This document shows positions 34,118-45,198 of a stretch of DNA of 64,000 nucleotides, piece after piece (the stretch's first letter is position 1; every line of letters begins with the position of its first letter). Source of the stretch: Sutcliffiella horikoshii. Its GTDB lineage: Bacteria > Bacillota > Bacilli > Bacillales > Bacillaceae_I. Both the position numbers and the translations under genes were made by a program. The stretch spans positions 2,666,001 to 2,730,000 of the forward strand of contig NZ_CP020880.1 of the NCBI RefSeq assembly GCF_002157855.1, written 5' to 3'. A model generated the notes under the pieces. It was not told where the DNA came from. It searched no databases and was given only the letters and a program-made list of their open reading frames with translations.

Positions 34118-34295
34118 TGTGGTCCTCCCTTAGTTTTCTGCTAAGGGTTAGTGTTTGTTTTCCAGCTTTTTCTATACATGGGGTAGGTAATACAAGGACT
34201 ATATTGAAAATTAACTTAGGAAAAGACTTTGAAGGGGATAAAGACATTTTCCAGCTGTGTTTCGTTTTGAAAGCGTCTTTTGGAGGTGGTTGAAG

Positions 34296-34556
34296 GGTTC
34301 TATTGGACTGAAGGGGGTCTTTTACTTGTGCTTCGGGCGTATAGAAGCGCTCTATTTGACCGAAGGGGAGCTTTCACTTGCGCTTCGGGCGTATAGAAGG
34401 CCTCTATTTGACCAAAGGGGAGCTTTCACTTGCGCTTCGGGCGTATAGAAGGCCTCTATTTGACCAAAGGAGAACTTTTACTTGTGCTTCGGTCGTATAG
34501 AGGGGCTCTATTTTACCGAAGCAATGCTTTCACTTGCGCTTCGGGCGTATAGAATT
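34296..34556. repeat. tandem array B, five 52-bp units
   Basis: Units containing TCTATTTGACC, GGGGAGCTTTCACTTG and CGCTTCGGGCGTATAGAA recur with an exact 52-bp period (TCTATT at 34299, 34351, 34403, 34455, 34507). The array fills most of the gap between pepF and the msrA-type gene. Each unit has CCGAAG/CTTCGG and ATAGA/TCTAT inverted pairs, able to form short hairpins. Reading frames over it have no ribosome site. Confidence 0.85.
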
Positions 34557-34642: not shown

Positions 34643-35275
34643 TCACCATCTTAACTCACTCACCAACGATATTAACTCGGCTGCGTCTTCACTCTCCCAT
34701 TGCATAATCTCTTCCTTCAAGGAAGAAAGTGTCCCATATCCTTTTACAAAGCTGTTTAACCTCGCTACCAAAGTTGCATCTGTAAATGCCTCTTCAGTTT
34801 GGAAGTACTCTCTTAGTTTTTTTGTAGCATTAGAATATCTTTTCAGGTAATATTTCTGGTGTTTTTCTTCAGCCAGTGTGAATTGATCTAGTGGTGCAAT
34901 TTCTGTTCCTATTGATTGTGAGTTTGTATTTTGGATTTCTTGCTTAATCTTTTCAATAGCTTCTTTTTGATTGATATCATGGTATAAAATTATCGATAAG
35001 TATTGCCTGCCCTTATAGTTCCCACGATTAGAATTGTGGGAGTTCCAAAAATGACGGGCAATCTCATCAAAAGTTATCTGGGTAGGATCAAAATCAATTT
35101 GTAAGCACTCAGTGTGATCTCCCATTTGTTTGTAGGTAGGCGTCTGAGTGGTTCCACCTGCATAGCCTACTCTTGTTCTAATGACTCCTTTTAAATACCC
35201 GAACCGGGCATCAGTTCCCCAGAATCAGCCCATGCCGAGAGTGACGGTTTGGAGATTGTGATCGTAATTGGTCAT
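34643..35275 (-). CDS. msrA: MsrA with in-frame TGA at the catalytic site; candidate selenoprotein
   Basis: From ATG 35275, behind GAAAGGAGCACAACA, the frame reads MTNYDHNLQTVTLGMG, then TGA (35225-35227), then FWGTDARFGYLKGVIRTRVG and on without a break to the stop at 34643, 210 residues. MsrA enzymes have GCFWG here, so the TGA replaces the catalytic Cys (residue 17) and nothing else. The downstream half is a full MsrA (VGYAGGTTQTPTY, GDHTE, KGRQYLS). Reading TGA as selenocysteine would give an active peptide methionine-S-sulfoxide reductase. The alternative is a pseudogene with one point mutation. No resolving Cys is seen near the C-terminus. Confidence 0.75.
35195..35211 (-). promoter_or_regulatory. 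SECIS-like stem-loop downstream of the in-frame TGA
   Basis: On the minus strand AUGCCCG and CGGGUAU form a 7-bp stem (one G-U) with a GUU loop. The loop begins 20 bases after the UGA and its first base is G. Known bacterial SECIS elements have the apical loop about 16-37 bases after UGA with a G among the first two loop bases, so the geometry fits. Confidence 0.5.
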
Positions 35276-35359
35276 TGTTGTGCTCCTTTCTATGGCAAGA
35301 GTTATTTTATTTGTTAGTTTAAAGTTAGCATGATTAATTATGTATGGGAAGTTGCTGTA

Positions 35360-35713
35360 TGAGGACAATGTTTCCGTTTTTCCGCTTACTTTGTCCTCAT
35401 TCAAGCCCTACGAGGACAATGTTTCTGTTTTCCCGCTTACTTTGTCCTCATTCACGCCCTACGAGGACAATGTTTCCGTTTTCCCGCTTACTTTGTCCAC
35501 ATTCACCCTCTACGAGGACAATCTTTCCATTTTCCCGCTTACTTTGTCCTCATTCATGCCCTACGAGGACAATCTTTCCATTTTCCCGCTTACTTTGTCC
35601 TCATTCACGCTCTACGAGGACAATGTTTCCGTTTTCCCGCTTACTTTGTCCTCATTCACGTCCTACGAGGACAATGTTCCTCCTTCTTCTGCTAACTTTG
35701 TCCTCATTCAAAA
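35360..35713. repeat. tandem array C, seven 51-bp units
   Basis: GAGGACAATGTTTCCG, then TTCCCGCTTACTTTGTCCTCATTCA (read in two parts) recur at 35361, 35412, 35463, 35514, 35565, 35616 and 35667, an exact 51-bp period. Every unit carries GAGGACAA and TTGTCCTC as inverted arms, so each can form a hairpin. Because 51 is divisible by three, all frames stay open, but there is no ribosome site and the translations are pure repeats; I do not call it coding. Confidence 0.88.
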
Positions 35714-38278: not shown

Positions 38279-39180
38279 ATGATTACGGATGCTAAATTGG
38301 ATTTGATTCTAAAAGGATGTTGGATTTTAAGGTTGAAATGAAAAAAGAATTAAGTGAATTGAACAGTAAAACTTCCACCCTGTCTGACAATCAAGTGCTT
38401 ATGAAAGATGAGATCAAAGGTCTTAACGATAAAACCTCCACACTCGCTGACAATCAGATACTGATGAAAGATGAGATTCGAGGTCTTAACCAAAATACCT
38501 CCACACTCGCTGACAATCAGATACTGATGAAAAATGAGATCAAAGGTCTTAACCAAAAAACCTCCTCACTCGCTGACAATCAGTTGCTTATGAAAGATGA
38601 GATCAAAGGTCTTAACCAAAAAACCTCCTCACTCGCTGACACTCAGTTGCTTATGAAAGATGAGATCAAAGGTCTTAACCAAAAAACCTCCTCACTCGCT
38701 GACACTCAGTTGCTTATGAAAGATGAGATCAAAGGTCTTAACGATAAAACCTCCACGCTCGCTGACAATCAGTTGCTTATGAAGGATGAGATCAAAGGTC
38801 TTAACGATAAAACCTCCACGCTCGCTGAGAATCAGATTCTAATGAACGATGAGATTCGAGGTCTTAACCAAAAAACTTCCACACTCGCTGACAATCAGAT
38901 ACTGATGAAAGATGAAATCAGCGGCCTTAGTGAAAAGACATTCATGCTTTCTGCAGGACAGCACCAGATAAAAGAGGAACTCCATTCTTTAACAAATACA
39001 ACTAGCACACTTCGTGAGGAATTCTACTTATTCAGGCATGATGTGAACGACCGCTTTAATGAAATCAATGCTACATTATCAAGGATAAAAGAGGATCAAA
39101 CGAAGGATATTGAAGCGATTCTTGAAGAAATTTCTGCAAAACTGGATGAAAGAGATCAACGTGATTTTGAATCAACATAA
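38279..39180 (+). CDS. repetitive coiled-coil protein, possible N-terminal frameshift
   Basis: The main frame from 38317 encodes 287 residues with nine near-identical and two degenerate 21-residue repeats (three heptads, for example KTSTLADNQILMKDEIKGLN), then a coiled-coil tail. The only good ribosome site, AAAGGAGGTGAT, serves an ATG at 38279 in another frame, giving MITDAKLDLILK then a quick stop. One extra base in the A-run at 38311-38314 would join the two frames into one coiled coil. So this is either a frameshift mutation, slippage, or start at 38317 without a ribosome site. Function unknown; no TM segment is seen. Confidence 0.6.
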
Positions 39181-44589: not shown

Positions 44590-45027
44590 TTATAGCTCTT
44601 CACAATGCTCTTCAAAATACCCTTGAAGCTTTGTGATGACAGACATTGGCGCATGGCCTTCGATTTCGTGTCTTTCTACCATCGTTACAATCTTGCCGTC
44701 TTTTAATAAAGCAAAAGAAGGAGAGGATGGCGGATAGCCTTCAAAATATTCGCGTGCTTTCTCCGTCGCTTCTTTATCTTGACCAGCAAAAACAGTAACT
44801 AAGTGTGTTGGGCGCTTGTCATAATGCACCGCATGCGTTGCAGCTGGACGTGCGATACCGCCTGCACAACCACATACAGAGTTAACCATTACAAGTGTCG
44901 TCCCTTTACGTGCAAATGCTTCTTCAACATCTTCTACAGTTCTAAGTTGCTCATAGCCAGCGTTATCCATTTCTTCTCTGGCAGTACGAACAACATCATT
45001 CATAAACATATTAAAATCGATATTCAT
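44590..45027 (-). CDS. brxB: bacilliredoxin BrxB (YqiW/YphP family)
   Basis: The 145-residue thiol protein has the CGC active site (Cys52 and Cys54, NSVCGCAGG) of bacilliredoxins, which remove bacillithiol from mixed disulfides on proteins. Length and neighbourhood (art genes, bkd) match B. subtilis YqiW. AAGAGGTGATACAAC precedes the ATG. Confidence 0.94.
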
Positions 45028-45164
45028 GTTGTATCACCTCTTCTTAAACTATCTCTATCATACCAATTTTTTTCAAATAATAAAATAAAAAAGGTTTATT
45101 TTCTAAGTTGGCGGGTATTATATCAGTAACATCTAGATATCCATACCCCTATACTCCCTAGATG

Positions 45165-45198
45165 AAGGAAAGTGATATGCTCACTTTCCTTTTTTTGC
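45165..45198 (+). terminator. plus-oriented terminator with no plus-strand gene
   Basis: AAGGAAAGTGA (45165-45175) pairs perfectly with TCACTTTCCTT (45181-45191) and TTTTTTT follows on the plus strand. Flanking genes meaB and brxB are both on the minus strand, where the stem lacks a T-run. It might still end meaB transcripts weakly. Confidence 0.6.

Follow-up and report, generated by a model that had tools for sequence, protein, structure and literature searches.

The msrA gene and its in-frame UGA

The window, by which we mean the whole stretch of 64,000 nucleotides analysed here, corresponds to C1:2666001-2730000 of the Sutcliffiella horikoshii genome (4.30 Mb, 2 contigs, completeness 100). 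Its minus strand carries a predicted msrA selenoprotein gene at 34643..35275, with 211 codons that include a UGA at codon 17 and the terminal TGA. A ribosome binding site (GAAAGGAG, 35283..35290, minus strand) stands 7 nt ahead of the ATG at 35275, and AAAGGAG is also found ahead of the msrA ATG in the 9 nearest congeners (L019-L027). The ATG is followed by 16 codons, the in-frame TGA (35225..35227, minus strand), FWG and, after the TGA, 193 open codons, which is the layout that the first-pass annotation had described. Codon 17 is predicted to encode selenocysteine (Sec) as the catalytic residue of the motif G-U-F-W-G, and homologues (L037, L052-L055 and others) have Cys at this place. The terminal stop is a TGA as well (34643-34645, minus strand). 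One relative (L028) shares this true stop, and 27 of the 29 orthologues end on TAA or TAG.

When translated through the UGA, the product scores 143.3 bits against PF01625 (cut-off 23.7, E 9.3e-42, residues 10-148) and, with the UGA read as Sec, 117.9 bits against TIGR00401 (cut-off 108.1). The score over the curated PF01625 cut-off, together with the G(C/U)FW motif, makes the window protein a member of MsrA. Five genes of the host genome match PF01625, and an inner stop occurs only in the msrA of the window. The mechanical ORF list contains only a truncated frame of 160 aa (34643..35125, minus strand), which starts with the ATG of an internal Met and lacks the active site, just as the first-pass annotation had expected of ordinary gene calling. 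An NCBIfam scan gave no selenoprotein model at cut-off, the nearest being NF041383 with 38.8 bits against 275, so automatic annotation may well miss Sec-MsrA.

Several repeats were also observed in the window. Tandem arrays flank msrA at 34292-34554 and 35361-35710, with units of 52 nt and 51 nt in 5.1 and 6.8 copies, respectively, and another array of 52-nt units lies at 1577-1780. An ORF on the plus strand (38317-39180) contains a 63-nt repeat in 8.8 copies, and its matches are weak, several of them being to coiled-coil type families. At 45127-45196 (plus strand), there is a match to sbrA (RF01489), a named Listeria sRNA, with 57.1 bits against a gathering score of 45.

Conservation of the UGA and the selenocysteine machinery

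Orthologues were surveyed in 150 genomes, the host included, and a match at E <= 1e-20 was obtained in 81 of them. Twenty-nine orthologues were full-length or nearly so, the copy in G026 is one more in two pieces, and the other matches, at about 101 bits or less, were treated as other MsrA subfamilies. TGA stands at codon 17 in 28 of the 29 full-length orthologues, and the only exception is G029, which has TGC at the aligned codon. Downstream of the UGA, comparison with 9 congeners gave a dN/dS of 0.10-0.19, indicating purifying selection past the UGA, as in a translated gene. The earlier remark that the fall of the stop exactly on the catalytic codon is notable is borne out by both results, which speak for more than chance. 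The msrA UGA is thus in frame, aligned with the Cys of homologues and kept across species, as looked for in a bacterial selenoprotein.

The presence of TGA goes together with that of selA, which exceeded its cut-off in 79 of the 150 surveyed genomes. SelA is present in all 28 genomes with the TGA form and absent from G029 with its Cys form; the chance of this co-occurrence is 1e-9 uncorrected for kinship, and because the surveyed genomes are related, the co-occurrence and the codon counts given below are not independent and p-values are only indicative. Within the genus of the host (16 genomes, host included), all 13 SelA-positive genomes have a TGA-bearing msrA, and the three SelA-negative genomes (G003, G006 and G014) have no Sec-MsrA orthologue, G003 showing only an MsrA subfamily match (2.9e-22).

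A scan of named contigs, which is not a census since it used two patterns and one of them is biased towards Cys forms, yielded at least 80 loci. Among the 80 named loci listed, TGA occurs in 12 and Cys in 68, of which 67 were called by script and L082 by eye. Four of the 12 are copies of genes already counted, which leaves 8 further TGA forms: those from Evansella, Texcoconibacillus, Bacillus solitudinis, Alkalihalobacillus, Bacillus sp. FJAT-44742 and Salsuginibacillus kocurii, and two from metagenome-assembled genomes (MAGs), one of Spirochaetales and one of Synergistaceae. In a tree of 96 rows, whose bootstrap had not settled, whose long branches were flagged and which does not fix the direction and number of Sec switches, the Sec label has to change at least 6 times, 2 of these changes being imposed by well-supported branches, and a Sec-only group unites the 13 rows of the genus with G016 (support 99/91). 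In a plasmid search, 1082 records had MsrA relatives, every one of them below 60% identity.

The components on which the Sec reading depends, selA, selB, selD and tRNA-Sec(UCA), were looked for in the host genome, as the first-pass annotation had advised, and all of them are present, which is the set expected where bacterial selenoproteins are made. selA (E 6.5e-169), selB (E 9.3e-108) and selD (E 5.9e-114) lie in one 20-kb stretch (L048), and the tRNA-Sec with anticodon TCA reaches 57.5 bits against RF01852 (threshold 47). selD itself (L048:14969-16120, minus strand) has an in-frame TGA near the N-terminus in KAG-U-GCK, presumably the usual Cys/Sec site of SelD, and is a second likely selenoprotein. 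Together with msrA, at least two genes of the host therefore have a UGA at the active site.

The hairpin behind the UGA and the alternative readings

A bSECIS-type hairpin of 8 bp lies just 3' of the UGA (35194..35212, minus strand), with a GUU loop at 35202-35204 and a UGA-to-loop distance of 20 nt, and it is indicated by the fold, by covariation, by a Cys control and by codon constraint. Starting at the UGA, a piece of 48 nt folds with -16.2 kcal/mol (z -3.2), an energy equally low in 1 of 200 shuffles, and the 22-nt hairpin piece folds at -9.1 kcal/mol, equally low in 2 of 200. As excerpted, the published bSECIS model sets a loop of 3-9 nt, a stem of 4-16 bp, a G in the first two loop positions, a UGA-to-loop distance of 16-37 nt and an MFE of <= -7.5 kcal/mol (PMC13188914), and the msrA hairpin agrees with all four criteria of that excerpt. 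Of the 36 TGA forms, 32 fold the triloop hairpin (the other four, L039, L046, L063 and L075, lack the exact triloop), versus 11 of 55 Cys forms, a control that consists of 54 of the 68 named Cys loci plus L037 and leaves out L082 and the last 13 rows (L116-L128). The mean energy of 25-nt pieces is -9.4 in TGA forms and -5.1 in Cys forms. The Sec-MsrA of the Spirochaetales and Synergistaceae MAGs (L099 and L110) have the same hairpin type, with ALG-U replacing GMG-U.

Covariation was evaluated over 31 distinct TGA rows, in which 91.5% of cells pair and double-sided changes occur in 4 of the 8 pairs (columns 18-32, 19-31, 20-30 and 23-27). None of 500 shuffles reached the observed covariation score, the cells paired or the cells with double change, 3 reached the number of pairs with double change, and 48 reached the further pair types, a weak measure. 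Slid structures pair in 26-49% of cells, and the +3 slide keeps 3 pairs with double changes. Codon usage points the same way. GGG is used at Gly26 in 32 of the 36 TGA forms versus 5 of the 55 Cys forms; in the 28 whole-genome TGA genes, it stands at codon 26 in 26 of 28 and at other Gly codons in 48 of 387, and CGG stands at Arg24 in 20 of 20 and at other Arg codons in 27 of 291. By these counts, the predicted stem fixes codons (Gly26, Arg24) that are otherwise uncommon. The machinery in the genome, the SelA-positive background of all TGA orthologues and the conserved, covarying bSECIS-type hairpin thus support the first-pass proposal, and judged from sequence, UGA17 is almost certainly read as selenocysteine.

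Three other readings of the UGA were weighed. A nonsense mutation, which would have destroyed the catalytic codon of a Cys-type msrA and left a pseudogene, would take a single step from TGC or TGT, might be tolerated in a genome with four other PF01625 genes, and has a parallel in the SelA-positive relative G026 (L047 and an upstream piece), whose copy is indeed broken, with the TGA kept and the frame lost further down. However, the same TGA is shared by 36 separate genes (28 from whole genomes, the host's own included, and 8 from named contigs), and these exclude the point mutation from Cys to TGA that the first-pass annotation had named as the alternative; with purifying selection past the TGA, SelA in all 28 TGA genomes, and the hairpin and its codon constraint also against it, a pseudogene is exceedingly improbable. 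We likewise find it very hard to credit that a shorter protein starts at the internal ATG (35125), the upstream part being a remnant or leader. This start does give the sole ORF of msrA in the mechanical list, but its product would have neither residue 17 nor FWG nor the initial strands of the fold, residues 1-50 hold 18 of the 43 columns that are invariant in the orthologue alignment (A1), and the ribosome site sits at 35283-35290. Finally, there is next to no probability that suppression or a changed code lets the UGA be read as Cys or Trp, because the same ORF uses TGA as its terminal stop, the full Sec machinery including tRNA-Sec(UCA) is present, SelD has its own in-frame UGA, and UGA forms have the bSECIS-type hairpin far more often than Cys forms do. 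We thus keep to selenocysteine at codon 17.

Proposed function of Sec-MsrA and comparison with known systems

With every cis and trans part in place, decoding would proceed by way of SelB, recruited with Sec-tRNA(UCA) by the hairpin just 3' of UGA17, and Sec would be inserted. By MsrA chemistry, Sec17 would then attack Met-S-sulfoxide, so that Met is set free and a selenenic acid remains. In the part of the 28 TGA forms that was examined, no conserved second (resolving) Cys was seen; 17 of the 28, the window protein included, have a Cys 40 residues after Sec (the place of C57), and 8 of the 28 have none. An outside thiol or reductant is therefore likely to reset the oxidised enzyme. This could be a protein resembling glutaredoxin, as it is for the C. 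oremlandii enzyme, or, more speculatively, bacillithiol/bacilliredoxin, since Bacilli use bacillithiol. Candidate reductants in the host genome comprise 5 PF00462 matches and 2 matches to PF06491, which we take to be the bacilliredoxin/YphP type. The PF06491 gene at 44590..45027 (minus strand) is a possible reductant of Sec-MsrA, and naming bacilliredoxin as the partner is a guess. Sec-MsrA would work beside the four other PF01625 genes, probably as the faster repair enzyme when selenium is available.

Another question is what the Sec machinery serves. FdhA and SelD have been credited with maintaining Sec decoding (as excerpted from PMC1794560), and the excerpt of an earlier survey puts Fdh-alpha and SelD first among selenoproteins in breadth of distribution, with MsrA outside its top-20 table (PMC5029168). 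In the host genome, we found no match to Fdh-alpha (TIGR01591) at E 0.001 and none to the molybdopterin oxidoreductase family PF00384, and across the genus, none of the 16 genomes matched Fdh-alpha at E 1e-100. None of the host's matches to AhpC-TSA (PF00578, 12), HesB-like (PF01521, 3) and glutaredoxin (PF00462, 5) has an inner stop, and the 7 frames with one TGA in the 20-kb sel stretch (L048) include none that can be supported as a selenoprotein. This client search covered few families, and SelD with MsrA makes up a minimum set of known clients and not a proven whole. Among the 79 SelA-positive genomes, at least 15 have a one-TGA Fdh-alpha (among the matches listed, which go to about E 2e-121), 28 have Sec-MsrA, and 4 have both. 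Up to 40 of the 79 (G018, G019 and G020 among them) lack both Sec-MsrA and a listed Fdh-alpha with TGA, and other selenoproteins are therefore very likely in the order and may exist in the host. In the genus, the Sec machinery may have MsrA as a main client. A wider proposal, that the genus keeps the Sec apparatus for methionine repair and not for Fdh, with Sec-MsrA (and SelD) as its main client, joint gain and loss of machinery and msrA, and bacillithiol/bacilliredoxin replacing glutathione/glutaredoxin in the reset, is tentative, and we consider it rather doubtful. The genus, in which no Fdh-alpha was found at E 1e-100, is a natural test of the use of selenium in such bacteria.

Bacterial Sec-MsrA is a known family (as excerpted from PMC9312934 and PMC13188914). 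In the excerpt of an earlier census, three selenoproteins from three families had already been counted for Bacillales, and an MsrA selenoprotein is listed for Syntrophobacter (PMC1794560); the excerpt of a Bacillus cereus Msr paper names a selenoprotein only for C. oremlandii (PMC8161402). Among the literature matches listed, which cover the main text of open-licence papers, no Bacillaceae Sec-MsrA is described. The window gene belongs to the Bacillaceae branch of the known C. oremlandii-type Sec-MsrA, and what emerges is a coherent Sec-MsrA family across Bacillaceae genomes whose conventional ORF is without the catalytic residue. The tree shows several changes of label, and its matched orthologues with Sec or Cys offer a direct test of what Sec contributes to a one-centre MsrA.

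The host's other four PF01625 genes score over the family cut-off, have no inner stops and stand apart in the tree, one of them on a very long branch; their translations, judged by eye, show GGCFW or GGCLW and do not have the C-terminal domain of the window protein. Cys-type MsrA of the same subfamily is found in Planococcus, Sporosarcina, Paenibacillus, Carnobacterium and haloarchaea, with Cys where the window has UGA, and this catalytic Cys is often the sole Cys. Their alignment reaches residue 208-210 in full-length Bacillota and about 180-209 in haloarchaea.

The nearest known system is the MsrA of C. oremlandii (CoMsrA; PDB 4lwj, 4lwk, 4lwl, 4lwm, 4u66 and 4w8c), which the window protein matches in sequence and predicted fold over its whole length. 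The profile built from 20 orthologues (A1) aligns its residues 3-205 with residues 8-209 of 4lwj (E 1.1e-70), and the predicted model, made with Cys in place of Sec (mean pLDDT 89.8), has 4lwj (CoMsrA U16C) as its best PDB match (TM 0.83, 203 columns, 42% identity). Both profile and model contain the C-terminal helical domain that marks the CoMsrA type, at about residues 146-210 (34646..34840, minus strand) by the limits excerpted for CoMsrA (PMC4333827). Like CoMsrA, the window protein has about 210 aa and its Sec near the N-terminus in GUFWG, at position 17 here and 16 there (excerpts of PMC4333827 and PMC4479559). The window protein has one Cys (C57) besides Sec17, whereas CoMsrA, in the excerpt of its description, has one Sec and no Cys; the same excerpt gives CoMsrA a catalytic and a C-terminal helical domain, an activity 20-fold higher than that of its Cys form, and reduction by glutaredoxin, not thioredoxin (PMC4333827). 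E56 of the window protein is invariant in A1 and, from the offset of one, probably corresponds to E55 of CoMsrA. Unlike CoMsrA, which comes from an anaerobic Clostridium, the msrA of the window has a host among the Bacillaceae. We have very little doubt that it would encode a Sec-containing peptide methionine-S-sulfoxide reductase of the C. oremlandii type, with a catalytic and a C-terminal helical domain.
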